DNA of 64,000 nucleotides from Roseibium salinum (GTDB lineage: Bacteria > Pseudomonadota > Alphaproteobacteria > Rhizobiales > Stappiaceae), in NCBI RefSeq assembly GCF_026240905.1, contig NZ_JAPEVI010000003.1, positions 3,038,001-3,102,000 on the forward strand. Reading direction: 5' to 3'. Shown piece after piece: positions 3,308 through 22,313 of the stretch. The position numbers and the translations under genes were made by a program. The notes beneath the pieces are model-generated. The model saw only the letters and a list, made by a program, of their open reading frames with translations, did not search any database and had not been told where the DNA came from. How positions within the stretch are numbered: position 1 is the stretch's first letter; each line of letters starts with the position of its first letter.

Positions 3308-6300
3308 TCAAGTTGCTGTGCCGTCAGGTCGCAGGCCGGCGAAGGTTTCATTGAGGATCGGGGCGGGGATCTCCATCAGGTCGGGCGCCGCCGTCCAGAG
3401 CAGACAGGCGGAAATCTCCCTGTCCGGATAAATCCGCTTCAGCATTTCCCGGTAGACACAAAGCTGTGCACGATATTCCAGCGGAACGTCGGCAACGGTT
3501 CGGGGCGGGTTGAGATTGGTCTTGTAGTCGACGATCAAGACCCGGTTTTCCTCGACCAGCAAGCGGTCGATCTGTCCGGAAATCTCGATCTCGGCGCCGC
3601 CATGGGATCGAATCGTGCCGACCAGCGGCACTTCCGCCCGGGCGTGCGCGGAAAACAGCGGCTTGAACGTCTCGTTTCCGAGAATGTCGCCGACTTCGGC
3701 CAGCAGCGGCTCGCGGAAGCGTTCGAATTCCGGTTTCAGCGCCTGACGCAGATAGTTTCCCGCCGCGGCAAGGCGATCCTCTTCCGGAATGTCAGGCAGC
3801 AGCTCCAGCAGGCGGTGTATAAGCCGGCCGCGTTCCAGAGGCCAGGATGCGGGCTCCTTGCGGGCCCGGAGGCGGGACAGCGCCGGGACCGGTTCCACCC
3901 CTTCCTTTTCCTCCATCGCCTCGAAGGCCCGCGAGGGCTGCAGGCGTTTTTCCTCGGCAAAGGCCTGACGGGCTCCATGATCCATGACGGCAGCGGCGCC
4001 TCGTCCGTCTCCGGTGCTGCCGCCTTGCCGGTGGTACCGCTCATCGCCTGCCCGGGGCTCTGCCGCCAGCGCCAGGCGACGACCTCGCCGTTCGCGCCGG
4101 TGAGTTCCCGGGCTTCCGGCTTCAGGGCGCGTTCGACCATCGAATACCAGCAATTCTCGTGAGCGCCGCGCTTCGGCTCCCAGCCGCAGACGATCAGCCG
4201 GTCCTCGGCCCGGGTGAGCGCCACGTAAAGCAGGCGGCGGTATTCCTCCTCCTGGGCCTCGCGCAGGGCCTCGACGGCGTCGTCGTGCCAGGGCATGCGG
4301 TTGGCCTTTGACGGCAGCCAGACAAGGGCGGGCGGCAGAAGATCGTTGTCCAGGCGCCTGCGCGGCAGGAAACACGGGTCGTGGATCGCGCTGACCGGCG
4401 GTGCCCCCGGATCGACCAGAATGACGATCCGGGCTTCGAGGCCCTTGGAGCCATGCACGGTCATGATCCTGACCATGCCCTTGGTGTTGGTGAGTTCGCG
4501 CTTGATTTCCGTCGGGGCGGCCGCCATCCAGGCGAGAAAGCCTTCCAGGCCCGGCGTACCCGCCTGCTCGTGGGCGATCGTCAGCGCCAGGAACTCGTCG
4601 AGGACGTCGTCGACCTCCACGCCGAGCCGGGCCCGGAAAGCCTGGCGGCCGCCGTCGGCACCGAGCAGCCGGGCATAGAACTCGTACGGCGGAACGAAAT
4701 CGGCACGGCCGCGCCAGTCTTCCAGTTTCGCCCGGACGGCCCGCCACTTGCCGGAGCCGTCGGAACGCTTGACCAGCATCTGCCAGAGCGTACCGGGCCG
4801 GCCCTTTTCAGGCGTTTCGCGCGCGATTTCCAGAAGATCGTCATCGGTAAGGTCAAAGAGCGGGCTCTTGAGCACGCATGCCAGCGACAGATCGTCTTCC
4901 GGCAACAGCAGAAAGTGCCCGAGCGCCGCCAGATCCTGGACGGCGATGTGGTCGGTGAGCACAAGCCGGTCGCTGCCGGCGGCCGGAATATCGAACTGCT
5001 TGAGTTCCCGGTTGAGCGCTTCGACGAAGGGACCGCGCTTGCGCACGAGAACCATCACATCGCCCGGCTCCGCCGTTCCCTCGCGCATCCAGCCGGCGAT
5101 TTCCGCAGCGATGCGCCTTGCGAGTTTCAGCATCGGACTGCCGGAGCCGACGTGGTCGACGGGCAAGCGCCAGTCGTCCGGCTCCTCGATGTCCGCCTCC
5201 GCTTCCAGGGGCCAGAGATCGACGATCCCCGGATCCTTGCGGAGCGCCTCATGGACGGGTGGCGTCACTTCCTGGGAGAGGCCCTTGTGCGCGCTCGCGT
5301 CGTGAAACACCTTGTCGACCGCGCCCAGAACATCCGGCGTCGAACGGAAGGACAGCTGCAGGTTGACCGAATGGAACTCCTGCTCTGCCGCGCCCGCCTG
5401 CGTCGAGAACGCCCGGCGCATCGCATCGAAATAGGCGGGAACCGCTCCCTGAAAGGAATAGATCGACTGCTTCTCGTCGCCCACGGCGAACAGCGTGCGG
5501 GTCCTCTCGTGGGATCCGGCGCCGACGAAGAACTCCGAGGCCAGGGCCTGGACCACTTCCCACTGGCGCGGACTGGTGTCCTGGGCCTCGTCGACGAGAA
5601 TGTGATCCAGCCCCTGATCGAGCTTGTATTGCACCCACTGGGCGGCATCGGATTTCTGCAGGAGCGTGGCGGTCTTGACCACAAGGTCCTCGAAATCGAG
5701 GAAGCCCCTGGCCGTCTTTGCCTGCTCGTAGTGGCGGATGACCGCCTCGGCGAGCCGCAGAAGGGACACGGAGCCCTCAAAGGTCGCGACCTTGCAGCGT
5801 TCTTCCAGCAGCGCCAGCAAGCGCGCCTGTTCGCCCGTGAGCGCGTCGACCATCTGCGGGAACATCTCCGCCAGTTTTTTGGTCGCCAGCGATTTGCGCG
5901 GTTCCAGCTTCGAGGTGAGAAAAATCTGCTGCCAGGCCTCCCGGAAGGCCGCCGGGTCCTGCAGGGCATGCGCCGCGAGCAGGTCCTGCGCCCGGGCCTG
6001 ATCGGTCTTGGTGCCCGTGTTCAGCGCTTCCGCATAGCTGAGGCAGGTGTTCCGGTCGAAGGGGCATTCCGCCTTGAAGCGGGCATCGAAGTCCGCGAGC
6101 CGGGCAGAAGGGTCCACCTCCAGCAGTCCGGCCAGTTCGGCAAGGGCGGTTTCCAGGTCGCCTGCATCGACGGTCCAGCGGCGGAAGGCATCGCGGTTCT
6201 GGATGAGTTCGTCGAGCGCCTTCTGGGCTCCGCCGTCGCTCATCAGGTCGATCACGGAGGCAAGAGCCTTCCCGAAGGCGCTCGCCGGTTCCGTCTCGGC

Positions 6301-6807
6301 CCTGTGCAGGACGCCGGCACGGGCCTCGGCCATCAGCTCGGCGGCGACGCGGTCGTCCAGCACCGAAAAATGTCCCGCCACGTTGGCTTCCAGCGGAAAC
6401 TGGTGCAGCAGCGCCTCGCAGAAGCCGTGGATGGTCTGGATCTTCAGCCCGCCCGGCGTCTCCAGCGCGCGGGCAAAGAGGCGCCGGGCCATGGCCAGGC
6501 GCGCGGCGTTCGGCCTGCGGCCCTCGATATCCTCAAGCTCCTGCGCCAGCGCCGTGTCTTCCATGGTCACCCAGGTGCCGAGGATCTTGAAGACGCGGGT
6601 CGCCATTTCGGCGGCGGCAGCCTTGGTGAAGGTCAGCGCCAGGACGCGCGACGGGTCGGTTCCGTCGAGCAGCAGCCGCACGACGCGGCGGGAGAGCACG
6701 AAGGTCTTGCCGGAGCCCGCATTGGCGCTCACCCAGGCGGAGGCGCGCGGGCGGGAGGCGAGGTCCTGGCGTTCCCGGGTCAGCTGCGGGATCTGAAAAC
6801 CGCTCAT
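3308..6807 (-). pseudogene. addA: AddA, ATP-dependent helicase/nuclease subunit, frameshifted
   Basis: AddA and AddB form the recombination helicase-nuclease of Rhizobiales (RecBCD counterpart). The frame from ATG 6807 (MSGFQIPQLTRERQ) carries the UvrD-type helicase: Walker A SANAGSGKTFVLSRR, ILVDEAQDTSPRQW, and motifs LQLSFRSTPDV and VRIMTVHGSKGLEARIV. It leaves frame just after SWIMEP near 3975. The next frame resumes with RQAFAEEKRLQPSRAFEAM and continues through the nuclease domain (GQIDRLLVEENRVLIVDYKT) to a stop at 3308. The span of 3,500 bases is one short of a multiple of three; restoring one base in the CCC run gives a normal 1,166-residue AddA. The start overlaps the addB stop by ATGA. 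It may be a sequencing error rather than a true pseudogene. Confidence 0.9.
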
Positions 6808-9800
6808 GCCGGCTCCTCGCTGCCAAGGCTCCATTCCTGGGTGCGGGCCAGATGATCGTAGTCGCCACCCATCTGCCGCTCGCGCATCACCCGGGCGCGG
6901 GAGAGATAACCGGTCTCCTCCTTGCCGTAATGGGCGATCAGTTGCTCCAGCCGTGTCCAGGCATCTTCAACCAGATCCTCCAGCTGCGTTTCCTTCGGGT
7001 TGCGCATTGCTTCCAGCACCGCGTCCGTGCCGCCTTTGAGCTGCAGGTAGAGCAGCTCGGAAATCCCGGCATCCGCCGGCACGTCCCTGAAGCCGAAGCG
7101 CCTGATCATCGCCGCTTCCAGCGGCAGCTGCGGTGACAGCAAGGCTTCCACCTGCTTGTGCGAGGGCACCTGCCCGGTCTTGTAGTCGATGACGGACAGG
7201 CCGCCGTCGACCAGAAGATCGATCCGGTCGGCACGGCCGCGCAGGCGGAAGTCGAAACCTGGCAGTTTCAGGTCAACCCCGCCGCCGATCTCCAGAAAGC
7301 GCTGCCGGACACGTTTCGCGCGCGCCGCCTCATAGGCCACAAAGCCCGCGGCAATCCTTTGAAAGCGCGGCCACCAGAGCGCCCGGATGGCCGGGAAGGC
7401 GTCCAGTGGTTCGAAAAGCTCCTCGCCGATCTCCGTCAACGCCGCGACGGCGCTGTCGTCGAACGGGCCGGACCAGACGGTCAGGAACCTGGCGAGCGCG
7501 TCGTGAACGAGGTTGCCCTTGTCCGCCGCGCCCGGTTCGCCGCCGATCGGATCGACCGGCTGCAATTCCAGGACATGGCGGGCGAAGATCGCGTAAGGAT
7601 CGCGGATGAGGCGCTCGATTTCGGTGATCGACAGGGATTTCGGCCGTGCCGCGAGCGCCGGCCTGGGATTGGGACGGGCAGCCGGCCGCACCGGGTGGTC
7701 CGACCGGTCCAGACGCGCCGCGAGCCCGGTATAGGCCTTGCCCCGTTCTTCCATCGCGCCGGTGATCGCCGGACCCGCAAGCGTGGTGAGCCGCTGCAGC
7801 CAGCGCGAGGCGACGGTGGGCGCGCCGTCGGCGCGGGCCGAGCGGGTCAGAAGCACGCGCCTTGCGCCCATGCCCTGGACGAAATCATGTGCCGACGCGC
7901 CGAGGCGGCGCTCCGGCGGCTCCAGCCCGATACCGCGCTTCATCGGCCGGTTGAGCCAGGGATCGTTGCGCGTGCGCTGCGGCCAGACGCCTTCGTTCAG
8001 CCCGCCCAGGATGACGAAGTCGAAGGACTGCAGCCGCGCTTCCATGGGACCGAGGATCTGCACCCTCTTGTCACCCGGCAGGCGGCGGCGGACCGCCTGG
8101 GCCGACATGAGAGCCGGGAGAACCGAAGGCCATTCGCCGGGCGGGATTTCCAGCCCGCTCGCTTCGGCCTCCAGGAGACCGGTCAGGAACTGCGCCAGCG
8201 CATCGCCGGCTTCGCCGGCAAAGAGTTCGTCGACGGAGCCGGCCTCATCGACGGCAACCGCCTGCAGCACATCGGCATGGCGTCTTGCTAGTTCAGTGAC
8301 GGAGACGGGCTCGAAGGTGGCCGACAGTTCCTCGAGCGGCGCCAGTGCGCGGCCAAGGCGCTCGACGAGATTCGCGATGACGTCCCAGTCGCCGTCGTGG
8401 ATCTTCTTCCAGCGCGGGGTGTGGGCCTTGCCGGCATCGTCCCGGCTGGCTGTCACGGCCGCCCGCAGGCCCTCGGTGCCGGGCCGCGCACGCGGGCCGC
8501 GCAACACACCGCGCTCCAGCGCCCGCGCCGCGGAGCGAATATCCTTGACCGGCAGGCCCAGCCGGGTGAGCGGGTGTTTCAGGAGCGCCAGCAGGTCGAT
8601 CGGCTCGCAGCCGCCAAGGGCCAGTTTCGCGGCCAGCAGGGCAAGGATCGCGGGCGCGGTCTGGTCCAGCGGCCGGCCGGCACTGTCGTCGACCTGGATG
8701 TTCCAGCGCGCCAGTTCGGCCGCCACCCGGCGCGTCAGCATGCGGTCCGGCGATATCAGCGCGGAGGTTTCTCCCCGCTCGATCGTTTCGCGCAGGGCAA
8801 TCGCAACGCCCAGGGCCTCGTCCGCCTCGTTGCGCGCGGTCATGATCGAAACGTTGTTCAGAGCTTCGGCTCGCTGCTCCTGGGATCGCGCGGCGAGATA
8901 TTGGGTCCAGCCGTCCGACGTGTCGGCGGGCCTCAGGGCTTCGGACACCAGTTCCTCGCGCAAGGCGCGTTCAGGTTCCGGCGCAGGTCCGAGCGCCCGC
9001 ACATCCGTCCGCCTGACACCAAGCCGGTCCAGAAGCTGCTTGAGCGAATACTGGGGATGGGACGGCAGCGTCGCCTCACCGCGCGGCTGGAACAGCGGCC
9101 CGGCCGTGTGCGCGCCGCGCTGGCCGAGCGCCGCCCAGGAACGGTCGTCCAGGTGGTGGTCGAGGCCCGGCAGCACGATGACGCCCTGCTCCAGTCCCGC
9201 AACGACCTTCAGAAGTTCCGCCGTTGCCGGCACGGATCCGGTCACCCCGGCGACGATAACCGGGCCAGTCTCCCGGGCTTGCGCGAGGCGCTGTGCTTCC
9301 CGGCGGATCAGGGCGGATCGCCGCGCCTTCGGATCCATCTGGCGAAGCTCGGCCAGATGCGCGGGCCAGGCCTCCTGCACGATCTTCAGGAAGTCGAGCG
9401 TGATCTGCCAGTAGCGGGCATGGTCTTCCGGAACGAGGCCGGCAAGTTCGGACCAGTCGGCTTCTTCGGTCTGGACCTCGTCCATCAGGGTGAGCAGGTC
9501 GCCCGCAAGCCAGGCGGCATCGGCCGTCGACGCGGGCACGCCGAGGGGCTCGTCCGAGCGCAGGCTCAGCGCCTCGCGCCGCAACATGCCCTTCCAGGCC
9601 TTCACCAGACGGGTCATGGCCAGATGGCGTTCAAGCAGCGGCATGGCGGGCGGCAGCGCTTCCATGTCGGCTTCGCTGGTCAGGCCCTGAGCATCCTCGT
9701 CCGCGTCGCCGACGGGCCGAATGGCGGGCAGCAGCACCGGCGTGCCGCCGAACTTCTGCTGGAAGAGCTCCGGCAGCAGGCGCGCCGCCCGGCGGGTCGG

Positions 9801-9947
9801 CAGATAGAGCGTGGCGGCGGCGAGTTGCAGCGGATCGTCCAGGGGACGGAACCCGGGTATCAGCGTGCCGTCCACCAACGTGTCGACGAGCGTCTTCAGA
9901 AACGGAACGGACGGGGAAACGGAATAGAGGCGCGTTCGCTCATCCAT
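6804..9947 (-). CDS. addB: AddB, double-strand break repair nuclease subunit
   Basis: The 1,047-residue protein matches alphaproteobacterial AddB. It has an N-terminal degenerate helicase region (ATLYLPTRRAARLLPELF), central FVILGGLNEGVWPQRTRNDP and FVQGMGARRVLLTRSARADG, and a C-terminal PD-(D/E)XK nuclease with LRGRADRIDLLVDGGLSVID followed by YKTGQVPSHKQVEALLSPQL. With AddA it resects double-strand breaks for RecA loading. The stop overlaps the addA start, and the start lies 2 bp after the nucleotidyltransferase stop, so the genes are translationally coupled. Confidence 0.95.
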   Translation of the reverse strand: MDERTRLYSVSPSVPFLKTLVDTLVDGTLIPGFRPLDDPLQLAAATLYLPTRRAARLLPELFQQKFGGTPVLLPAIRPVGDADEDAQGLTSEADMEALPPAMPLLERHLAMTRLVKAWKGMLRREALSLRSDEPLGVPASTADAAWLAGDLLTLMDEVQTEEADWSELAGLVPEDHARYWQITLDFLKIVQEAWPAHLAELRQMDPKARRSALIRREAQRLAQARETGPVIVAGVTGSVPATAELLKVVAGLEQGVIVLPGLDHHLDDRSWAALGQRGAHTAGPLFQPRGEATLPSHPQYSLKQLLDRLGVRRTDVRALGPAPEPERALREELVSEALRPADTSDGWTQYLAARSQEQRAEALNNVSIMTARNEADEALGVAIALRETIERGETSALISPDRMLTRRVAAELARWNIQVDDSAGRPLDQTAPAILALLAAKLALGGCEPIDLLALLKHPLTRLGLPVKDIRSAARALERGVLRGPRARPGTEGLRAAVTASRDDAGKAHTPRWKKIHDGDWDVIANLVERLGRALAPLEELSATFEPVSVTELARRHADVLQAVAVDEAGSVDELFAGEAGDALAQFLTGLLEAEASGLEIPPGEWPSVLPALMSAQAVRRRLPGDKRVQILGPMEARLQSFDFVILGGLNEGVWPQRTRNDPWLNRPMKRGIGLEPPERRLGASAHDFVQGMGARRVLLTRSARADGAPTVASRWLQRLTTLAGPAITGAMEERGKAYTGLAARLDRSDHPVRPAARPNPRPALAARPKSLSITEIERLIRDPYAIFARHVLELQPVDPIGGEPGAADKGNLVHDALARFLTVWSGPFDDSAVAALTEIGEELFEPLDAFPAIRALWWPRFQRIAAGFVAYEAARAKRVRQRFLEIGGGVDLKLPGFDFRLRGRADRIDLLVDGGLSVIDYKTGQVPSHKQVEALLSPQLPLEAAMIRRFGFRDVPADAGISELLYLQLKGGTDAVLEAMRNPKETQLEDLVEDAWTRLEQLIAHYGKEETGYLSRARVMRERQMGGDYDHLARTQEWSLGSEEPA

Positions 9948-9949
9948 CC

Positions 9950-10684
9950 TCAGGCAGCACTCTCACGCACGGCATATTCCGCCGCGCTGATGGCATCCGG
10001 CGTTCCGATATGGAGCCAGAGACCTTCCATCTGGACACCGAAAAGCCGGCCGGCCTCGATCGCCTTGTCAAACAGGATATTCATGGAGAACGGCCCGTCC
10101 GGCGCGTCTTCGAACAGGCGCGGATGCAGGATCGCGGCTCCGGCATAGGCGAAGGGCGTGACGCCCTTCTCCGGCCTGCGCGTCAGGGAGCCATCCCTGG
10201 CGAGGACAAAATCGCCGCGCCCGGAATAACCGACGGACTTGACGGTTTCGGCCACCAGCAGCAGCGCATCCATGCGGGTTTCGTCCCAGGCCTCGATCAT
10301 GTGTTCCAGGTTCGGCTTCACGCCCTCGATCCAGTAGCACGTATCGGCATTCAGCTGAAAGAACGGCTCGTCCCCCAGGAGCGGCAGCGCCTTCTTGATG
10401 CCGCCGCCGGTTTCCAGGAGCTGAGCGCGCTCGTCGGAGATGACGATCTCCATGTCCTTGCGGCGGCCAACGTGCACTTCCACCAGGTCGGCCAGGTAAT
10501 GCACGTTGACAATGCAGGTTTTCACGCCCGCCGCGGCGAGCCGGTCCATGCCGTGATCGATCAGCGCCTGGCCGTTGACCTCGATCAGCGGCTTGGGCGT
10601 CGTCGCGGTTAGCGGGCGCATGCGCTTGCCGAGGCCTGCGGCCAGGATCATGGCTTTGGTGGGGCGAAACCGCGTGTTTGTCAT
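9950..10684 (-). CDS. MurU-like nucleotidyltransferase (N-acetylmuramate-1-P uridylyltransferase type)
   Basis: The 244-residue protein has the sugar-phosphate nucleotidyltransferase signature AMILAAGLGKRMRPLT, followed by PKPLIEVNGQALIDH, and the metal-binding LNADTCYW. Such proteins are often labelled mannose-1-phosphate guanylyltransferase, but the position directly after an AmgK-type kinase domain matches the amgK-murU pair of cell-wall recycling, where MurU makes UDP-MurNAc. The ATG at 10684 is chosen over an in-frame TTG at 10696 because GAGAAAC precedes it. Substrate is inferred from context; sugar specificity is not visible. Confidence 0.8.
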   Translation of the reverse strand: MTNTRFRPTKAMILAAGLGKRMRPLTATTPKPLIEVNGQALIDHGMDRLAAAGVKTCIVNVHYLADLVEVHVGRRKDMEIVISDERAQLLETGGGIKKALPLLGDEPFFQLNADTCYWIEGVKPNLEHMIEAWDETRMDALLLVAETVKSVGYSGRGDFVLARDGSLTRRPEKGVTPFAYAGAAILHPRLFEDAPDGPFSMNILFDKAIEAGRLFGVQMEGLWLHIGTPDAISAAEYAVRESAA

Positions 10685-10729
10685 ACTGTTTCTCAAATGA
10701 TGGCTACGGCCCTGAAGGTCCGACGGAAC

Positions 10730-12256
10730 TCAGGGCAGAAAGCGTGCGTACCAGTCTTTCAAATCCGGCACGGAAGGTCTGTCAAGCACCCGTTCGAGAT
10801 AGCCTGCCAGACGCGGCAGATGGGCAAGGTAAGCCGGCTTACCATCGCGCTTGGCCAGCCGCACGAAGATCCCGAGGATCTTCGAAATCCGCTGCGCGGC
10901 CATGACGGCATAGGCCTTTGAAAACTCTGCCCGATCGAAGTTCGATGCCTGACTTTCCCTTGCAGAAACGTAAGCACCCAGAAGCTCCATTTCCAGATCT
11001 TCGCTCATGTCCGTGCGGGCGTCCAGTGTCAGGGATGCGACATCGTAGGCGACGGGTCCGAAAACCGTATCCTGGAAATCGATCAGGCCGATACGGTCCG
11101 TCCCGCGCGCCCCTTCCTGCCACAGCAGGTTGGGCGAATGAAAATCACGCAGCACCCAACCCCGTTGAGCGCCCGAAATGGCGTCCAGTACTTGCCGCCA
11201 GAGCGCTTCGAAGCCCGCGCGCGCGTCCTCGTCCAATGCCCGGCCGCTGACGTGAGGCACGTACCACTCCACAAACAGCGAGGCTTCCGCAATCAGGGCT
11301 TCGGTGGAATAGTCGGGAACCTCATAGCTTCCGCCGCTGTCCAGCAAGACGGTTTTGGGCCAGGTCTGCCCGTGCATTGCTGCCAGAACACCGATCGCGG
11401 CATGGTAGCGTTCGGGGACGGGCTTGCCGTCCCTGACGATCGTCTCGCTGCCGAGATCGGTGGCAAGGATCAGGCCCTTCTCCAGATCGGAGGCGAGGAT
11501 TTCCGGAGCCCCGAAGCCGCGCTTGCGCAGCTCGGTTCCGATGGCAACCACCGACCGGCAGTCGCGGGCGAGATGCACCTTGTCCATATAGGCGCGGACC
11601 GCCTGCGGCACCGCGTCGTCGTGAAACGGCCAGCGCATCAGCACGGCAGACCTGCCGCCGGAAATCACGGTCTCGAATGTGCGCAGGGAAGCATCGCCCG
11701 CCAGAAAGCGGCGTTCGGCGTCCCGGAAGTCGGTCTTTTGCAGGAAGGCCCGGATTTCGAACGACTGCGCAACCCGCCCCTGCCAGCCAGGGGCGTCGGA
11801 GTGGAAGCTGAAGATACGCTCCCCGGTTTCCTCCGACCGCTGCGTGATCTGGATCCACAGCGCCGTTTCCGGCAGCAGGTCTTGCGCCTTTTCCGGCCAC
11901 TCGATCAGCGCCGCCCCGGTTTCCAAAAGGTCGTCCAGGCCCAGTTCCTCGAGCTCTTCAGGCTCTTCCAGACGGTAGAGGTCGAAATGGGAGAGGTCGA
12001 AGCGGCTAAACGCATAAGTCTGGACAAGGGTGAAGGTCGGGCTTGGGACTTCGAGCTCGGGGTCGCCGGCAAAGGTGCGCAGGAGCGCTCTTGCGAAGGT
12101 CGACTTGCCGGCGCCGAGGTCGCCGGACAGGCAGACGGTGTCGCCTGCTCTCAGCACCACCGCCAGCTCGTTGGCGAGCCGACGCGTTCCGGCTTCGTCC
12201 GGAATGTCCAGGGTCAGGAACGGCGACGGCAAATGCCTCAGGTCATGGTCTGCCAT
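10730..12256 (-). CDS. TsaE-AmgK fusion: tRNA t6A ATPase domain plus sugar kinase domain
   Basis: Residues 1-150 are TsaE: Walker A CLSGDLGAGKSTFARALL, VPSPTFTLVQTY, FDLYRLEEPEELEELGLDD and IEWPEKA. TsaE energises t6A modification of ANN-decoding tRNAs with TsaB and TsaD. Residues 170-508 are an aminoglycoside-phosphotransferase-type kinase with the catalytic loop VLRDFHSPNLLW and the metal motif IDFQDTVFGPVAYD. AmgK of this fold phosphorylates N-acetylmuramate and N-acetylglucosamine at C1. The nucleotidyltransferase follows 45 bp downstream and divL lies 11 bp upstream. The two activities have no obvious mechanistic link. Confidence 0.93.
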   Translation of the reverse strand: MADHDLRHLPSPFLTLDIPDEAGTRRLANELAVVLRAGDTVCLSGDLGAGKSTFARALLRTFAGDPELEVPSPTFTLVQTYAFSRFDLSHFDLYRLEEPEELEELGLDDLLETGAALIEWPEKAQDLLPETALWIQITQRSEETGERIFSFHSDAPGWQGRVAQSFEIRAFLQKTDFRDAERRFLAGDASLRTFETVISGGRSAVLMRWPFHDDAVPQAVRAYMDKVHLARDCRSVVAIGTELRKRGFGAPEILASDLEKGLILATDLGSETIVRDGKPVPERYHAAIGVLAAMHGQTWPKTVLLDSGGSYEVPDYSTEALIAEASLFVEWYVPHVSGRALDEDARAGFEALWRQVLDAISGAQRGWVLRDFHSPNLLWQEGARGTDRIGLIDFQDTVFGPVAYDVASLTLDARTDMSEDLEMELLGAYVSARESQASNFDRAEFSKAYAVMAAQRISKILGIFVRLAKRDGKPAYLAHLPRLAGYLERVLDRPSVPDLKDWYARFLP

Positions 12257-12267
12257 CAGCCGGCATC

Positions 12268-14778
12268 CTATTCGGCCGCGGCCTGATCCGCCAGTTCGGG
12301 CCGTGCCGGGAAAACGCAGGTAACCGTGGTGCCATTGCCTTCGGCGGACTGGATGTCGACCGTGCCGCCATGCAGTTCGACGAAGCTCTTGACGATGGCA
12401 AGGCCAAGGCCCGCGCCCTGGCGCCGGGAGCCGGTGTCGTGGCCGACAAAGCGGTTGAAGACCTGGGTCAGGATTTCAGCCGGGATGCCGTGGCCGTGAT
12501 CCTTCACGACGAAGGTCACGCTATCGTCCTCGCGGCTGCAGCTCACATCGACGACACCATCGGCCTCGGAATAGCGGACCGCGTTGGAAATCAGGTTGAA
12601 CAGAACCTGGCGCAGACGCTTTTCGTCCGCGACGATCATGCCGATATTCTCCGGCACGTGGGTGCGCAGGTTGATCCGGGCTTCGGCGATCCGGTCCTTC
12701 AGGCCCTCGACGGCAGCGGAAACCGTGGTTGCGACATCGACCTCGCCGATATCCAGTTCCATGATGCCCGCATCGAGGGTCGCAAGGTCCAGAATGTCGT
12801 TGATGATGGCCAGAAGAGCCGAGGAGGACGACTGGATGTATTCGGCGTATTCGCCCTGCTTTTCGGAAAGCTCGCCGAATTTCGGGTCGGACAGAAGCTG
12901 GGCGAAGCCGATGATGTTGGTCAGCGGTGAGCGCAGCTCGTAGGAGACGTGCTGAATGAAGGCGTTCTTGATCAGGTCGGCCTGCTGAAGCGCCTCGTTC
13001 TTCTCAAGCAGGGCGCGCTCGACATTCACGCTGTCGGTCACATCCACGAAGGTGACCAGCGTGCCGCCGTCCGGCAGCGGCACGGTGGCATAGTCCAGCA
13101 CGTCGCCATTGTGGCGCTCCAGGCGGCTGATCTTTTGCGTGCGGTTGTCGACAAGGCCGGTCACGCTGCCCGCAAGCTGTTCCCAGGCCTGCTTCTCGAC
13201 CTCGCTCAGGGTACAGGCGGAGACCACTTCCTTCACGTGCGGCAGTTCGGAGAGGCGGTCTTCCTCCAGGCTCCAGATGCGCCCGAATGCCGGGTTCCAG
13301 AGCCGCAGGCGGCCATCGGAACCGAACACGGCAACAGCCTCGGAAAGATTGTCGAGGGTTTCGCCCTGGACCCGGGTGAGCGCGTTGTAGCGGCTTTCCA
13401 GATCGAGCTGCTCGGTGACGTTCTCGTAGATATAGGTGACGCCGCCCTGGGGATGCGGGTTGGCGATGACGCGCAAGGTGCGGCCATCGGGCAGGTGCCA
13501 CCAGTTTTCCTTCGCCTCCAGGGACTGGTAGTTCTCCAGCATCTTGTTGCGCCAGACTCGATAGTCGGCCTGCTCGGGCAGCTTGCGCGCGGCGCGCAGG
13601 GCATCGAGCACGGCGCCGTCTTCGGGGCGGCCTTCCAGGAAGGCCGGGTCGAGATCCCAAAGCTGGCGGAAGGCGGCATTGTAGAACTGCAGCTTGCGGT
13701 CGCTGCTGAAGATGGCGACGGCGGCGGCGAGCTGGTCGAGCGTGCGGCCGTGGAACTCCTCCGCGCGGTTCATTTCCTTCTGGGCCCGTTCCAGTTCGCT
13801 GATATCCACGGCGATGCCGGCTCCGCCGACATTCGCGTTGACGTCCGTCACTTCGAAAACCCGGCGCTCGCCGGAGGCGACGATCGGGATGCGGGCGGTG
13901 AAACAGCCGTCTTCCGTGCGTTGCACCGCCATGGCGGTGCGTGCGGCAGCGTCCAGGAAGGTCGCACCGTCCTTGACCGCGCTTGCGGCGTCCGGCATGT
14001 CGACCGCTTCGGCATAGGCCGCATTCGCCCAGATGAGATTGCCTTCCGCATCCCGCTGCCAGGCCGGCGCGGGCATGGCGTTCAGCAGTGCGTGCAGCAT
14101 GTGGAGTTCGCCGGAGATCCTGGCGTTGCGCGCGGCAAGTTCCGCCTGCATCTGCCTCTCGCCGGTCAGGTCGCGCAGGCGCAGCACGACGGCACCGCCG
14201 GTGGTGCGGCCGAGCGCCTCGACATAGGTGCCGGTGCGGGTCTTCAATGTGGTGGTGAAGGCTTCGCCGGTGCGAAACAGCATGTCCAGGTGCCGTTCCA
14301 GATCCCCGGCGCCTTTTGCAGTCAGCCAGCTGCCGAATGCCAGGAGCTGTGCCGGCGGGCGCGGTACGCCCGACTTTTCCGGAAGGATGCCCCAGATCTG
14401 CGGCATGGCGCCGTTGCCGGTCCAAACGATCACGCGCTGCTCGTCGGTGTTGAGCATGGCTTCCAGGCGGTCGACCCGGAATTTCAGGTCGCTCTTTTCC
14501 TTTTCCAGGGAACCGGTGATCTGGGCGGCGAGTCTGCGATGGCGCACCAGAGCGATCGCGGCGGTGACGGAGAAAAGACACATGCCGCCAAGCGCGCCGA
14601 ACAGGATCATGGTGCCGGGGTTGATGGCCGCCAGCGTGCCGGACACGATGCCGGCAGCAGCCGGACCGGAAGACAGTCCAAGGCCCGCCGCCGCAGCGCC
14701 GCCAAGCTTGACCTTACTCAGACTCCACTCTCGCCACGTCGCGCGTATCCGCGCGCCGTCCCTGCTGCCTTTCGGCAT
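12268..14778 (-). CDS. divL: DivL-type PAS-domain histidine-kinase-like protein (tyrosine at the H-box)
   Basis: The 836-residue protein has an N-terminal membrane segment (about residues 56-80), at least three PAS-like modules (about 225-325, 340-455 and 475-580), a DHp domain at 605-670 and a HATPase domain (N-box FNLISNAVRYS, DHGHGIP, GAGLGLAIVKSF). At the position of the phosphorylated histidine the sequence is FIQHVSYELRSPLT, with Tyr613 in place of His. This is the hallmark of Caulobacter DivL, which controls CckA-CtrA signalling through DivK rather than acting as an ordinary kinase. The start at 14778 has AAGGGG upstream. It leads the tsaE-amgK-murU-addBA cluster and lies next to ahcY. 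Confidence 0.88.
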   Translation of the reverse strand: MPKGSRDGARIRATWREWSLSKVKLGGAAAAGLGLSSGPAAAGIVSGTLAAINPGTMILFGALGGMCLFSVTAAIALVRHRRLAAQITGSLEKEKSDLKFRVDRLEAMLNTDEQRVIVWTGNGAMPQIWGILPEKSGVPRPPAQLLAFGSWLTAKGAGDLERHLDMLFRTGEAFTTTLKTRTGTYVEALGRTTGGAVVLRLRDLTGERQMQAELAARNARISGELHMLHALLNAMPAPAWQRDAEGNLIWANAAYAEAVDMPDAASAVKDGATFLDAAARTAMAVQRTEDGCFTARIPIVASGERRVFEVTDVNANVGGAGIAVDISELERAQKEMNRAEEFHGRTLDQLAAAVAIFSSDRKLQFYNAAFRQLWDLDPAFLEGRPEDGAVLDALRAARKLPEQADYRVWRNKMLENYQSLEAKENWWHLPDGRTLRVIANPHPQGGVTYIYENVTEQLDLESRYNALTRVQGETLDNLSEAVAVFGSDGRLRLWNPAFGRIWSLEEDRLSELPHVKEVVSACTLSEVEKQAWEQLAGSVTGLVDNRTQKISRLERHNGDVLDYATVPLPDGGTLVTFVDVTDSVNVERALLEKNEALQQADLIKNAFIQHVSYELRSPLTNIIGFAQLLSDPKFGELSEKQGEYAEYIQSSSSALLAIINDILDLATLDAGIMELDIGEVDVATTVSAAVEGLKDRIAEARINLRTHVPENIGMIVADEKRLRQVLFNLISNAVRYSEADGVVDVSCSREDDSVTFVVKDHGHGIPAEILTQVFNRFVGHDTGSRRQGAGLGLAIVKSFVELHGGTVDIQSAEGNGTTVTCVFPARPELADQAAAE

Positions 14779-14933
14779 GTCATGATCCCCTTGTGCCGCG
14801 TCGTCCCGCTTTGCGCAGGCGCCGCTCCCAGATTTCGGGAGCAAATCAAAGACATCCGCCTCCTGGCCTTTGATTCGCTTAAACCATAACCTTTTTGAGA
14901 ATCACGCAGAAGAGTCCGTTGCTGAAAAGTTAA

Positions 14934-14970
14934 CAGGACCCTTCAAATTGAAGGGTCCTGCATTTTTTTG
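14934..14970 (+). terminator. Perfect 13-bp-arm hairpin with T tract, ahcY-divL gap
   Basis: CAGGACCCTTCAA, one base, TTGAAGGGTCCTG, then GCA and seven T on the plus strand. By orientation it terminates plus-strand transcription, yet no plus-strand gene precedes it. On the minus strand it follows the ahcY stop by about 65 bp, where it is followed by GTTAACTTTTC and could act as a weaker terminator. Confidence 0.7.
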
Positions 14971-15024
14971 TTCACAGTACCGAATCGAGGCGATTACCAC
15001 ATATAGTGTGTCGCCTTCGAAGAA

Positions 15025-16413
15025 TCAGTATTTGTAGTGTTCCGGCTTGAACGGACCGGTCTTGTTAATCCCCAGATATTGAGATTGTCCGTCCGTCAAC
15101 TCGGTTAACGTAACTCCAAGTTTCTCCAGATGGAGACGTGCAACCTTCTCATCCAGGTGCTTCGGCAGCACGTAGACTTCGTTCTTGTACTGGTCGCCCT
15201 TGGAATAGAGTTCGATCTGCGCCAGCACCTGGTTGGTGAAGCTGGCGGACATGACGAAGCTCGGGTGACCGGTCGCGTTGCCGAGGTTCACGAGACGGCC
15301 CTGCGAGAGCAGGATCATGCGCTTGCCGTCCGGGAACTCGTAAAGGTCGACCTGGTCCTTGACCGGGCGGCACTTTGTGTTCTTCAGGGCAGCAACCTGG
15401 ATCTCGTTATCGAAGTGGCCGATGTTGCAGACGATCGCCATGTCCTTCATGCCACGCATGTGGTCGAAGGTGATGATGTCCTTGTTGCCGGTCGCGGTGA
15501 CATAGATGTCGCCTTCCGGCAGGGTCTGTTCGATGGTCTTGACCTCGAAACCGTCCATGGAAGCCTGCAGGGCGCAGATCGGGTCGATTTCGGTGACGAT
15601 CACGCGGGCGCCGGCACCGGCCAGCGACTGGGCAGAGCCCTTGCCGACATCGCCGTAGCCGCACACGACGGCGACCTTGCCGGACATCATCACGTCCGTG
15701 CCGCGGCGGATGCCGTCGACGAGGGATTCACGGCAGCCGTAACGGTTGTCGAACTTGGACTTGGTGACGCTGTCGTTGACGTTGATCGCCGGGAACGGCA
15801 GCTGGCCCTTCTTCTGCATCTCGTAAAGACGCAGGACGCCGGTGGTGGTTTCTTCCGAAACACCCTGGATCAGATCGCGCTGCTTGGTGAACCAGCCCTT
15901 GCTGGATGCGATGCGCTTCTTGATCTGGGCAAAGAGGCATTCCTCTTCTTCCGACGTCGGGTTGGCGATGAGTTCGGTTTCACCGGCCTCGACCCGCGCG
16001 CCGAGCAGGATGTAGAGCGTGGCATCGCCGCCGTCATCCAGGATCATGTTCGCTCCCTCGGGGAAGTCGAAGATCTTGTCGGCGTAGTCCCAGTATTCTT
16101 CCAGGGTTTCACCCTTGGTGGCGAAAACCGGAATGCCGGCGGCGGCGATCGCCGCAGCGGCCTGGTCCTGCGTGGAGTAGATGTTGCAGGACGCCCAGCG
16201 GACTTCCGCACCCAGCGCAACCAGAGTCTCGATCAGAACCGCGGTCTGAATGGTCATGTGCAGCGACCCGGCGATCCGGGCACCTTTCAGCGGCTTTGCG
16301 TCGCCGAATTCCTCGCGGCAGGCCATCAGGCCCGGCATTTCGTGTTCAGCGATCTCGATCTCGGTGCGGCCCCAATCTGCGAGCCCTATGTCTTTGACAA
16401 TGTAGTCGGTCAT
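15025..16413 (-). CDS. ahcY: S-adenosylhomocysteine hydrolase
   Basis: The 462-residue enzyme splits S-adenosylhomocysteine to adenosine and homocysteine, sustaining methyltransferases. It has the NAD-binding loop [20 protein letters not shown], the substrate-domain segments [16 protein letters not shown] and [20 protein letters not shown], and the terminal [10 protein letters not shown] typical of AhcY. Length is normal for alphaproteobacteria. It is preceded by a structured leader and an operator-like palindrome, and by a SAM-dependent methyltransferase gene whose product would generate its substrate. Confidence 0.98.
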
Positions 16414-16747: not shown

Positions 16748-18055
16748 TCAGATCGCTCCACGGTACAAATCCTCGCGGGACGGCGGCATTCCGGAGGGGC
16801 CTTTGGTGCGGCGGGAGGTTACCGTCTGGAAGATCCCGATCGTGCCGCGATCAAAGCCGAGCGAGACGCCGCACAGATAGGCGAGCCACAGCCTGTATTT
16901 GCGCTCGCCGACTTCGGCAATGGCAGCTTCTTTCGCCGCCATGAGGTTTTCGGCCCAAAGGCGGGTGGTGCGGGCATAATGCTCCCGCCAGGCTTCGACA
17001 TCGTGGACCTCGAAGCCGTGCGCTTCGAGATTGGTCAGGGTCCAGCCGATGTGATCCACTTCGCCGCCCGGGAAGATGTAGCGGACCAGCGTCTGATATT
17101 CAGCCTTCTTGCGGCGGAACTTCCTGAGGTCCTTTTTCCCCCTCCGCGTGATCGCGTGATGCAGGTAAAGCCCGCGCGGCTTGAGCAGACGGTGCACATG
17201 CCGGTAGTAGTCGTCGTGATTGTCGATGCCGACATGCTCGAACATGCCGATCGAGGAAATCTTGTCGAACTGGCCATCCAGCTCGCGGTAGTCCTTCAGC
17301 TCCACCTGCACCTTGCCTTCCAGGCCGCGCTCCCGGATCCGATCGCGGGCGAGCCTGGCCTGTTCTTCGGCGAGCGTCACGCCGACGGCCGTCACGCCGT
17401 AATGCTGCGCGGCGTAACAGATGAGCCCGCCCCAGCCGCAGCCGATGTCAAGCAGCCGGTCGCCGGGCTTCAGCCGCAGTTTGCGGCAGATCATCTCCAG
17501 CTTGTCGCGCTGCGCCGTTGCCAGGTCGTTGTCCCAGTCGCGGAAATAGCCGCAGGTGTAGAGCATTTCCGGATCGAGAAAGTGCCGGTAGAAGTCGTTG
17601 GAGACGTCATAGTGAAAGGCGATATCCGCCTTGGCACTGCCCGAAGCGGCATTGGGCGCCGCCGCGTCCGGCGCTTCACCGGCTGGCGCCAAGCCGCGGG
17701 GCGCGCGCAGCAGCTTCCAGGCGGAACCGAGCAGCAGGCGCTTGTTCAGTTTTCGCAGGAGTGCCTTGCCCTTCACCTTGGGTCGCTTGTCGGCGAAATC
17801 GAAAATCGTGCCGCCGCGCGGGTCGATGTCGCCTGCGGCATAAAGCTCGATGACGGTCCTGAGGCCCGGTGCACGCAGGAGCCGCGGCAGGGCGGCATCG
17901 GAGATGAACAGGCGCATTCCGTCCGGCGAAGCGGCGGAAGGGATCACCGTGCCGTCGGCAAGTTCAAAGGCGAATTCCGGCCCGAGCGCCTCATGAACGT
18001 GCTGAAGAAGCTGTCTGGTCGCCCCGGAAACGGCGTCGGCTGACATCTGCGCCAT
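16748..18055 (-). CDS. Cyclopropane-fatty-acyl-phospholipid synthase family methyltransferase
   Basis: The 435-residue protein has the CFA-synthase arrangement: an N-terminal lipid-binding region (to about 130) and a C-terminal SAM-dependent methyltransferase with DRLLDIGCGWGGLICYAAQH (about 200), VTLAEEQARLARDRI, and KISSIGMFEHVGIDNHDDYY, which holds conserved active-site residues. It methylenates unsaturated acyl chains of membrane phospholipids using SAM, which links it to the neighbouring ahcY. The start at 18055 has AGGAGA upstream. A related fatty-acid methylation activity cannot be excluded. Confidence 0.9.
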   Translation of the reverse strand: MAQMSADAVSGATRQLLQHVHEALGPEFAFELADGTVIPSAASPDGMRLFISDAALPRLLRAPGLRTVIELYAAGDIDPRGGTIFDFADKRPKVKGKALLRKLNKRLLLGSAWKLLRAPRGLAPAGEAPDAAAPNAASGSAKADIAFHYDVSNDFYRHFLDPEMLYTCGYFRDWDNDLATAQRDKLEMICRKLRLKPGDRLLDIGCGWGGLICYAAQHYGVTAVGVTLAEEQARLARDRIRERGLEGKVQVELKDYRELDGQFDKISSIGMFEHVGIDNHDDYYRHVHRLLKPRGLYLHHAITRRGKKDLRKFRRKKAEYQTLVRYIFPGGEVDHIGWTLTNLEAHGFEVHDVEAWREHYARTTRLWAENLMAAKEAAIAEVGERKYRLWLAYLCGVSLGFDRGTIGIFQTVTSRRTKGPSGMPPSREDLYRGAI

Positions 18056-19009: not shown

Positions 19010-19477
19010 TTATATATAATCCGCCGTTTCGGGAAAGAGTTCCCTGAAAGCCCAGCGGATCTGCCGCAAACTTGTGCCGGGATCGTTCGACGGACAGGAC
19101 AGCAGCGGCAGGGATATTCCTTCCAGAAGATCGCTTGCAAGGGCCGGGTCCGGCAAGCGGTCGATCGCTTCGGGCGGTTTCAGATCCACGATCAGATCGA
19201 CACACGCGACCGGCTCGAATGCGATCTCCTCCAGCCCGACGCCGCGGACTTCGATCATCCCCTGGATCGTCTCCGGCACGCGGGCCAGAACCCGGTCCCG
19301 CTCCGCATCCAGAAGAACGCGGTCATCGGCAACGAGGGCCGCAAAATTGCCCTTTGCGCGGGCAGCCTCGAGCAAGGTTTCGGCCAGTGAGGATTTGCCG
19401 CTGCCAGCATCGCCGCGGATCAGCACGCCGTGCGTACCGACAACCACGCAGGTGGCGTGGACGGACTGCCGTGTCAT
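19010..19477 (-). CDS. hprK: HPr kinase/phosphorylase, short alphaproteobacterial form
   Basis: The 155-residue protein is the C-terminal catalytic half of HprK only. It has the P-loop LIRGDAGSGKSSLAETLL (about 20-37), LVADDRVLLDA and the HprK signature IQGMIEVRGVGLEEIAFEPV. It lacks the N-terminal domain of Firmicutes HprK (about 310 residues), as is standard in alphaproteobacteria. It phosphorylates HPr on Ser. Its start overlaps the chvG stop (ATGA at 19474-19477), so the sensor kinase and HprK are co-translated. Confidence 0.95.
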   Translation of the reverse strand: MTRQSVHATCVVVGTHGVLIRGDAGSGKSSLAETLLEAARAKGNFAALVADDRVLLDAERDRVLARVPETIQGMIEVRGVGLEEIAFEPVACVDLIVDLKPPEAIDRLPDPALASDLLEGISLPLLSCPSNDPGTSLRQIRWAFRELFPETADYI

Positions 19478-21282
19478 TTGCCCTTGCCCGCGGGCAGATA
19501 GATGGTGAACCGCGCGCCGGCGGCCGTCTTGCCGTCCGGTTTCAGCCGGTTGGTGGCCTTGATCGAGCCGCCGTGGGCCTCGATGATCTGTCTTGAAATC
19601 GACAGGCCGAGACCCGAATTGTTGCCGAAGCCCTCGCCCTCGGGACGGTCCGTATAGAAGCGTTCGAAGATGCGCTCGGTGTTCTCCGCGCGGATCCCCG
19701 GCCCGTCGTCGTCAACCGTCACCTTGATCATCCGGTCCTCGCGGGACAGGGAGACCCGCACCGTTCCCCCCGCGGGCGAGAAGGAACGGGCATTGTCGAG
19801 CAGGTTGCTGATCACCTGGCCAAGGCGGATATCGTGCCCCTGCATCACATAGGGCTTGGTTCCCGGCGCATCGGCAACGGTCAGCTTGACGCTCGCCTCG
19901 TCCGTGGCGGCCCGCTGGTTGGCGGCGCCCGCCATGTTGCGCAGCAGCTCGGCCAGATCGATGGTCTCGGCCTGGATCCTTGCCAGCTCCGCATCCAGAC
20001 GGGAGGCGTCGGAAATGTCGCTGATCAAGCGGTCCAGACGGCGCACATCATGCTGGATGACCTCCATCAGCCGGTCCATGGACTCCTTCGATTTCGCCAG
20101 CGGCAGGGTTTCGACCGCGCTGCGTAGCGAGGTGAGCGGGTTCTTCAGCTCATGGGCGACATCGGCGGCGAACTGTTCGATGGCGTCGATCTTGTTATAG
20201 AGCGCATGGGTCATCTCTCGGAATGACCTTGCCAGGTGGCCGATTTCGTCCTGTCGGTCGGAGAAGTCCGGGATTTCCTCGCGCGAGTTCGATCCCCTGC
20301 GGACCCGGTCCGCGGCGGCCGCCAGGCGCCGCACGGGGCCGGCGATCGTGCCGGCCAGGAAGATGGACAACAGGATCGTGACCGTCGCGGCGAACAGGAA
20401 CACCCGCATGATGGCGATCCGCTCCGCCCGCACGATGGCGTCAATGTCCCCGCCCTGGGTCGACAGGAGCAGCGACCCGAGCACGGCCCGAAACCGCTGG
20501 ATCGGCACCGCCACCGAGACGATCAGTTCGCCCCGCTGCGAAATGCGGGTGACGCTCGCCGGCGAGCCCGCAAGAGCCGCCTCGACTTCCGGATAGGCCC
20601 GGCCGTCGCCGCCGCCGACTTCCTGGTAGAGCGGCAGGTCGCCCTGCTGAAGCCAGCGCTTGGCCCATTGCCAGACGACTTCCCAGAAGCTTTCTTCCAC
20701 ATCCGTGGGAGGCGGCAGGTCGAAACGCAGGATCTGCGCGCTGGAATAAAGGTGCCGGGAATCGAGGATTAGAATGCCTTCCGGATCATAGATCCGCGCC
20801 CGCGTCTTGGTCGGCGAAATCAGCCTGCGCAGGACGGGGCCGACGCGCTCGGGGTTGATCGGGAAGTCGAGACTGTCCAGATCTCCCCCGGTCGGTGTCA
20901 GGCTCTCGCCGGCCTGCAATTCCAGCAGCCGTTCCGGATCCACGGTGATCGTTCCGGTATCGACGGTCGCGGAGGCGGCAATCGCCCCGGCGATGATCTC
21001 GCCCTGGGTGAGGAGGCTTTGCACCCGCGCATCGATCAGGCCGGCCCGGAACTGATTGAGATAGAGAATGCCGATCACGAGGGCCAGCAGGCCGACAAGA
21101 TTGATCGCGATGATCCGGCGCGTCAGGGACGATAGAACATAGGTGCCGAAAATCCGGCCGAACTGGTTGAGAAGACGGCGGCGGAGACGCTTGTTGCCAA
21201 GCCTGCGCAGCCGGGAGCGTTCCGAACCGCTTTCCGGATCGGAGACGCCAACGCGTTCCGCACTCTCGCTTTCAGCTGCCAT
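19474..21282 (-). CDS. chvG: ChvG (ExoS) sensor histidine kinase
   Basis: The 602-residue membrane kinase has a first transmembrane segment at IIAINLVGLLALVIGILYL, a long periplasmic sensor, a second segment VFLFAATVTILLSIFLAGTI, a HAMP linker, the H-box QFAADVAHELKNPLTSLRSA and HATPase boxes LGQVISNLLDNARSFSP, DDDGPGI and NNSGLGLSISRQI. ChvG-ChvI (ExoS-ChvI, BvrS-BvrR) responds to acidity and envelope stress and controls surface polysaccharides, outer-membrane proteins and metabolism. chvI lies 145 bp upstream and hprK overlaps downstream. Confidence 0.96.
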   Translation of the reverse strand: MAAESESAERVGVSDPESGSERSRLRRLGNKRLRRRLLNQFGRIFGTYVLSSLTRRIIAINLVGLLALVIGILYLNQFRAGLIDARVQSLLTQGEIIAGAIAASATVDTGTITVDPERLLELQAGESLTPTGGDLDSLDFPINPERVGPVLRRLISPTKTRARIYDPEGILILDSRHLYSSAQILRFDLPPPTDVEESFWEVVWQWAKRWLQQGDLPLYQEVGGGDGRAYPEVEAALAGSPASVTRISQRGELIVSVAVPIQRFRAVLGSLLLSTQGGDIDAIVRAERIAIMRVFLFAATVTILLSIFLAGTIAGPVRRLAAAADRVRRGSNSREEIPDFSDRQDEIGHLARSFREMTHALYNKIDAIEQFAADVAHELKNPLTSLRSAVETLPLAKSKESMDRLMEVIQHDVRRLDRLISDISDASRLDAELARIQAETIDLAELLRNMAGAANQRAATDEASVKLTVADAPGTKPYVMQGHDIRLGQVISNLLDNARSFSPAGGTVRVSLSREDRMIKVTVDDDGPGIRAENTERIFERFYTDRPEGEGFGNNSGLGLSISRQIIEAHGGSIKATNRLKPDGKTAAGARFTIYLPAGKGK

Positions 21283-21427: not shown

Positions 21428-22126
21428 TCAGACCTCGCGGAACCGGTAGCCGACACCATAAAGGGTTTCGATCATATCGAAGTCGTCGTCAACGACCTTG
21501 AACTTTTTCCGGAGGCGTTTGATGTGGCTGTCGATGGTCCGGTCGTCCACATAGACCTGATCGTCATAGGCCGCGTCCATGAGCGCGTTACGGCTCTTGA
21601 CCACGCCGGGGCGCTGCGCCAGGGCGGACAGGATCAGAAACTCGGTGACCGTCAGCGTGACCGGCTTGTTGTTCCAGGTGCAGGTGTGACGCTCCTGATC
21701 CATGACCAGCTGGCCGCGCTCCAGCAGCTTGTCCGCATCCTCGCGCGCCGTGGACGCGTCGCGGGGCTGCGCCCGCCGGAGAACCGCCCGGACGCGCTCG
21801 ACCAGAAGACGCTGGGAGAAGGGTTTGCGGATGAAATCGTCGGCGCCCATCTTCAGTCCGAACAATTCGTCGATCTCATCGTCTTTCGAGGTGAGGAAGA
21901 TCACCGGCATGTCGGAGTTCTGACGCAGACGGCGCAGCAGTTCCATGCCGTCCATGCGGGGCATCTTGATATCGAAGATCGCCAGTTCCGGCGGATCGGT
22001 CTGCAACCCGTCAAGCGCCGAGGTTCCGTCCGTATACGTCTGGACGCGATACCCTTCCGCTTCCAGGGCGATAGAGACCGAAGTCAGAATATTGCGGTCG
22101 TCATCGACCAGAGCAATTGTCGGCAT
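21428..22126 (-). CDS. chvI: ChvI response regulator (OmpR family)
   Basis: The 232-residue regulator has a receiver domain with acidic pocket ALVDDDRN, phospho-acceptor D52 in [10 protein letters not shown] and the conserved FLTSKDDE lysine, then an OmpR-type winged helix ending [20 protein letters not shown]...GVGYRF. The start at [10 protein letters not shown] is used because the nine residues before it are not part of the fold. It is divergent from pckA across a 540-bp regulatory region. ChvI control of pckA is reported in related rhizobia. Confidence 0.97.
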
Positions 22127-22313
22127 GTTTCGTTTCCATCTCCGGCAATGCACCGGTGGTGTGCATCGGCATTATTGTAACATAGAGCCTTTGGCCTGCT
22201 AAATGCGCATAAATTAAGGCAAACCGGTATTTACGGCCCTTCGCGGCAACGAACGTAAGGCGACGCGCTGCAATGTTGGGAATCGGTTGAGCAAATTTCA
22301 AGTAGCCGGCTCA

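Follow-up and report, generated by a model that had tools for sequence, protein, structure and literature searches.

The closest described relatives of the gene studied here encode DivL, an alphaproteobacterial cell-cycle protein with the build of a histidine kinase, and come from Caulobacter crescentus and Brucella abortus. Caulobacter DivL was reported to show neither kinase nor phosphatase activity, and its dimerization and phosphotransfer-type (DHp) domain binds phosphorylated DivK (DivK~P) and is linked to CckA (PMC4211667). Mutants at Arg553, Tyr562 and Ala601 were impaired in DivK~P binding, and the Y550H variant had no autokinase activity alone, gained it in the presence of DivK~P and harmed growth (PMC4211667). 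The same source describes Tyr at the kinase phospho-His position throughout DivL homologs, with Ala in Magnetospirillum magneticum as the sole exception. Many Rhizobiales are reported to carry two divL homologs (PMC8116508). In B. abortus, divL is one of 16 genes, from bvrR to trx-1, shown by RT-PCR to be co-transcribed (PMC9491525). Here we examined a divL candidate in a 64,000-nucleotide stretch of Roseibium salinum DNA (the window) and surveyed its H-box position across related loci.

A preliminary description had called this gene probably DivL, on the basis of a Tyr in place of the phospho-His together with several PAS domains. The residue and its number were exact: the H-box, residues 607–620, reads FIQHVSYELRSPLT, with Tyr at 613 (Table 1). 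The protein is encoded on the minus strand, frame 1 of the plus strand over the same interval being interrupted by a stop. Its layout is that of DivL, with several PAS domains followed by a DHp-CA module and, from hydropathy, a predicted N-terminal membrane segment. The plurality of PAS domains held, as Pfam returned two PAS_7 stretches and one PAS match; the weaker PAS_7 would lie N-terminal of the one adjoining DHp. The ATP site has its N-box Asn, G1 (DHGHG) and G2 (GAGLGL) all intact in a motif check, as is also the case in 96 of 116 Tyr-bearing rows of the survey (window protein counted in). By itself, the intact site does not resemble that of a dead enzyme. No NCBIfam model naming the protein was found, and none reached its cut-off among the 25 matches listed of 86 families.

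Table 1. Features of the divL locus in the window (positions are those of the window).
Feature	Position	Strand	Basis or remark
OmpR-type response regulator	21428..22153	minus	chvI by position
chvG	19474..21282	minus	NCBIfam ChvG, 522 bits, below cut-off 740
HPr kinase, PTS IIA, HPr	between chvG and ahcY, in that order	minus	
Cyclopropane-fatty-acid-synthase-like gene	16748..18055	minus	between HPr and ahcY
ahcY	15025..16413	minus	NCBIfam TIGR00936, above cut-off
Stem-loop, 13 pairs, possible ahcY terminator	14933..14961	minus	consensus scan
divL	12268..14778	minus	836 aa, ATG start; open frame, PDB match 4q20, reciprocal best hits
Predicted single transmembrane segment, about residues 57–78	14545..14610	minus	hydropathy maximum only
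PAS match, residues 227–257	14008..14100	minus	Pfam PF00989
PAS_7 adjoining DHp, residues 475–587	13018..13356	minus	Pfam PF12860, better of two PAS_7
DHp (HisKA), residues 604–671	12766..12969	minus	Pfam PF00512
Tyr613 codon (TAC)	12940..12942	minus	kinase phospho-His position; equals Caulobacter Tyr550
HATPase_c (catalytic/ATP-binding), residues 718–826	12301..12627	minus	Pfam PF02518
tsaE-amgK fusion	10730..12256	minus	508 aa; Pfam TsaE + APH, single frame
murU-like nucleotidyltransferase	9950..10696	minus	NF045697 278 bits (cut-off 370), NF045761 177 bits (cut-off 250), both below
addB	6804..9947	minus	NCBIfam TIGR02786, above cut-off
addA	3308-6834	minus	over two frames, 3736-6834 and 3308-4747
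Thioredoxin gene	after addA	minus	
pckA	divergent from divL cluster		

The best PDB match of the protein was Caulobacter DivL (4q20, E = 1.5e-45), ahead of an ordinary kinase at 3.8e-33, and the 4q20 kinase module in turn returned divL as its first hit in the R. salinum genome (7.1e-47; runner-up 5.7e-34). Searched against a Caulobacter-like genome, a metagenome-assembled genome with a DivL module sharing 99% identity with 4q20, the protein found the DivL locus (L185) first at 1.0e-124, with the next hit at 8.6e-38; identity to Caulobacter DivL is about 37% over the matched length. Its own genome held one DivL-grade match, the second hit (1.7e-39) being a PdhS-like kinase, and our protein search thus found no second divL homolog there. 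Among the best 120 of 4625 relatives, whose named members are mostly Roseibium, Labrenzia and Stappia, Tyr occupies the aligned site in 119 of 119 other proteins (54–92% identity). Reciprocal best hits, the closest solved structure, a gene order common to numerous alphaproteobacteria and Tyr in the near relatives together support the assignment of the gene as a DivL ortholog. The two observations named beforehand as able to overturn that assignment, another gene being the reciprocal best hit of DivL or His in the closest relatives, both went the other way. It was also correctly foreseen that automated annotation would be generic, since the labels given to the gene or its near relatives run along the lines of ‘PAS domain-containing sensor histidine kinase’. 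Where the preliminary description went too far was in treating Tyr as an identifier: the DivL call stands, but orthologs with His, Phe, Val or Ser exist (see below), so that Tyr is typical of DivL, not defining. The gene can now be named DivL instead of a generic PAS sensor histidine kinase; otherwise the assignment has little consequence, as this is an ordinary ortholog of a kind, and in a gene cluster, already known.

By analogy with Caulobacter, we consider it most likely (probability roughly 0.9) that this ortholog works like Caulobacter DivL, as a membrane-bound, PAS-regulated pseudo-histidine-kinase. Its DHp surface would serve to bind phosphorylated DivK and would itself phosphorylate nothing; DivL on its own would keep CckA in its kinase state, feeding ChpT and CtrA, and DivK~P bound to DivL would shift CckA towards phosphatase. 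That the protein has no kinase activity, binds DivK~P and controls CckA is in each case presumed from the Caulobacter work. By alignment, Caulobacter Tyr550, Arg553, Tyr562 and Ala601 correspond to Tyr613, Arg616, Phe625 and Ala666, so the DivK-contact positions are kept, Phe625 for Tyr being a conservative change; Arg616 is also common to ordinary kinases. The genome encodes relatives of DivK (79% identity, E = 1e-61), CtrA (83%, 3e-125) and CckA (76%, 7e-60, over a fragment), in each case against an approximate query sequence (for DivK, that of Caulobacter), as well as a member of the ChpT family PF10090 above its cut-off (8e-36) and the PdhS-like kinase. Another candidate for CckA, L005, was rejected: PDB gave just a hybrid kinase at 1e-40, and the CckA query fragment matched another gene. 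CtrA-like sites (TTAA-N7-TTAA, one mismatch) were likewise set aside as evidence, since the four in the window, against 1.6 expected, were reached in 11 of 100 shuffles and the ahcY-divL spacer contains no such site.

To see how constant the Tyr is, we searched 290 genomes class-wide. A match at 1e-40 or better was present in 180, and DivL loci were taken from 139 of them; the 41 matching genomes outside this sample comprised about ten same-genus repeats or short matches without the kinase half (G056, G213, G273), the rest being weaker, so divergent and short DivL are under-sampled. One fetched stretch (L126) was left out as the wrong region. Across the 139 loci the site holds Tyr in 115, His in 9, Thr in 4, Phe in 3, Gly and Gln in 2 each, and Val, Ser, Arg and Lys in one each (12 other than Tyr, His or Phe). 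Tyr is therefore not fixed in DivL, and the survey departs from the published near-universal Tyr. A further set of 80 named loci (best 80 of 577), collected with two peptide patterns, gave Tyr in 77, the other three being unmatched by the expression, a proportion not usable as a frequency because one pattern demanded SY and so biased the set. We also searched 48 genomes, 24 with non-Tyr and 24 with Tyr DivL, for DivK at a threshold of 1e-25. It was found in all 14 genomes whose DivL has His, Phe, Val or Ser (weakest G179, 1e-28, 48%) and in 20 of the 24 with Tyr (weakest G161, 2e-30, 46%), whereas at that threshold no DivK turned up in the ten genomes having Thr, Gly, Gln, Lys or Arg. The residue aligned with Arg616 follows the same division, being Arg in 129 of 130 Tyr, His, Phe, Val or Ser rows (window protein counted; the exception is Lys in L128, from G179), and just one of the ten remaining rows has Arg there; the DivK and Arg616 counts are not independent, since the rows are related. 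Such a division fits the connection already published between DivK and the kinase half of DivL (PMC2877005).

These data bear on three other readings of the R. salinum protein. DivL might act on CckA mainly without DivK, taking other inputs through its PAS domains. DivK is dispensable in Hyphomonas neptunium while DivL is essential (PMC7200025), so that not every lineage need use the DivK step, and a DivK match at 1e-25 was lacking in 4 of the 24 genomes with Tyr DivL. R. salinum, however, has a DivK relative 79% identical to the Caulobacter query sequence and keeps the DivK-contact positions in DivL, and we regard a mainly DivK-independent mode as improbable here, if the most credible of the three.

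It would be considerably more surprising if the protein were an active tyrosine kinase that autophosphorylates Tyr613 through its intact N, G1 and G2 motifs, as might be imagined from the tyrosine phosphorylation of DivL reportedly once proposed in early Caulobacter work. Phe is found at the site in L023, L024 and L144, the first two being relatives from the window's own taxonomic order, which argues against phosphorylation of this residue. Moreover, no autokinase activity was detected for Caulobacter DivL, its binding of an ATP analogue was weak, and its essential functions were independent of a phosphorylated DHp (PMC4211667). Least plausible of all, and scarcely to be entertained, is that the gene is another DivK-family kinase (PdhS, PleC or DivJ) which has lost its His. 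The next match in the genome is indeed a PdhS-like kinase, but that is a separate gene (749 residues scanned, E = 5.8e-189, below the model cut-off), the reciprocal best hits to DivL are ahead by many orders of magnitude, and the gene order is one common to DivL loci.

The natural His versions were an unexpected by-product of the survey, which matters more than the window gene itself, and they are the part most worth passing on. They fall into four groups. The first is Sneathiella/Oceanibacterium: L085 and L121–L123 are Sneathiella loci taken from four different genomes of that genus; all have His at the site and come from genomes with a DivK relative. Among the 120 relatives listed for L122, the first 59 (P0123–P0181) together with P0192 and P0232 have His and the other 59 have Tyr; P0181 (His) is from Oceanibacterium hippocampi. 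P0192, also with His, is an incomplete protein whose database record belongs to the brown alga Discosporangium mesarthrocarpum and which shares 67% identity with Sneathiella DivL; it is probably a bacterial sequence in the alga assembly. The second group is Ferrovibrio, which L110, L124 and L125 match, with His at the site as in the Ferrovibrio-like proteins P0243–P0287. The Ferrovibrio search newly listed 88 proteins, 39 with Tyr and 49 with His, the latter being 46 Ferrovibrio-like proteins plus P0298, P0299 and P0301. These three and P0232 group with L030, which forms the third group, and the fourth is L128, a single His species beside two Tyr species of the same genus. In all nine loci the His codon is CAT or CAC, one base from the Tyr codons.

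The groups differ in their ATP sites. All three motifs are intact in the five Sneathiella and L030 loci and two of the three are kept in L128, whereas none of the three Ferrovibrio loci keeps any of N, G1 and G2, though His is present. For all nine His genomes, the DivL match led the next one by a wide margin (1e-107 or better versus 1e-52 or worse for the next), the ranking covering in most genomes 54 scored candidates out of more found. The seven Sneathiella and Ferrovibrio loci also keep ahcY, tsaE-amgK, murU and addB, while the fetched stretches of L030 and L128 hold none of these four, so that for these two orthology is judged on sequence alone. Our literature searches, including DivL combined with Sneathiella or Ferrovibrio and with subscription journals mostly outside their scope, found no report of a natural His DivL.

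For phylogenetic analysis we used 87 rows, with one Tyr row per family, the site itself dropped and 16 listed relatives added; Tyr rows no longer than 600 residues, five long-branch rows and the Thr, Gly, Gln, Lys and Arg rows were left out. On this tree His needs four changes and every His group sits among Tyr rows. Sneathiella/Oceanibacterium and L128 are separated by well-supported branches, and Ferrovibrio and the L030 group by branches of 87–90. An unpruned FastTree of 140 rows instead placed Ferrovibrio beside L105 (Ser) and required 10 switches between Tyr and other residues. Forcing 16 His rows, with L128 excluded, into a single clade was rejected by the AU test (p = 0.027), a grouping named after the tree had been seen. 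That Tyr preceded His would be the parsimonious order, not a proven one, since the root was not inferred. It is possible, though we offer this only tentatively, that the pseudokinase state is reversible, a change of Tyr to His in the Sneathiella/Oceanibacterium and L030 groups having restored a DivL in which H-box and ATP site are both complete, and perhaps autophosphorylation. Such proteins may self-phosphorylate, at least with DivK~P bound, whereas Ferrovibrio DivL, with His and lost ATP-site motifs, could at most accept phosphate from DivK~P. The His versions could test whether the loss of DivL catalysis is reversible, and the natural His, Phe, Val and Ser forms, all in genomes that keep a DivK relative, are ready tests of the role of the Tyr and of regain by a pseudokinase.

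Around divL, the neighbors ahcY, tsaE-amgK, murU, addB and addA are those the preliminary description had named, addA being split over two frames, whether by an error in sequencing or by a genuine frameshift. It had also placed divL in one transcript with the downstream genes; such a transcript would be likely from divL downwards, where the gaps as far as addA are 11, 33 and 2 bases, followed by an overlap. Upstream, the ahcY-divL spacer of 246 bases holds the 13-pair stem-loop; the scan gave 2 sites, one palindrome counted on both strands, against a shuffle mean of 1.1 (sd 1.2), which is within chance. No sigma-70-like promoter was found in 14500–15300 (0.3 in shuffles). At least one of ahcY, tsaE-amgK, murU and addB lies in the same direction as divL in 106 of the 139 DivL loci, and all four in 42, both counts being lower bounds because the stretches reach about 4 kb on each side; at least the ahcY-divL-addB part is therefore widespread. 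Near divL, some fetched loci match one half only of TsaE/AmgK.

The protein shares with C. crescentus DivL (4q20; PMC4211667) the H-box Tyr, PAS domains before DHp-CA and the ATP-site motifs, whereas the Caulobacter-like locus L185 has no match to ahcY, tsaE-amgK, murU or addB in 16.7 kb around divL. The short DivL of Rhodobacterales is described with a PAS region like that of the window protein but without the kinase-like half (PMC9430884, PMC2877005). With the bvrR/bvrS operon of B. abortus, in which divL is BAW_12015 (PMC9491525, Table 1), the window shares the order response regulator, sensor kinase, HPr kinase, PTS IIA, HPr, ahcY, divL, tsaE, nucleotidyltransferase, addB, addA and thioredoxin, and in both pckA is divergent. 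The linkage of divL to tsaE, murU and addBA has thus already been published, since the B. abortus operon includes divL. The cyclopropane-fatty-acid-synthase-like gene is present in the window and absent from the Brucella operon table, and tsaE is fused to amgK in the window, unlike in Brucella. Co-transcription is known from Brucella, and the gene order of the published bvrR/bvrS operon recurs in the R. salinum genome.
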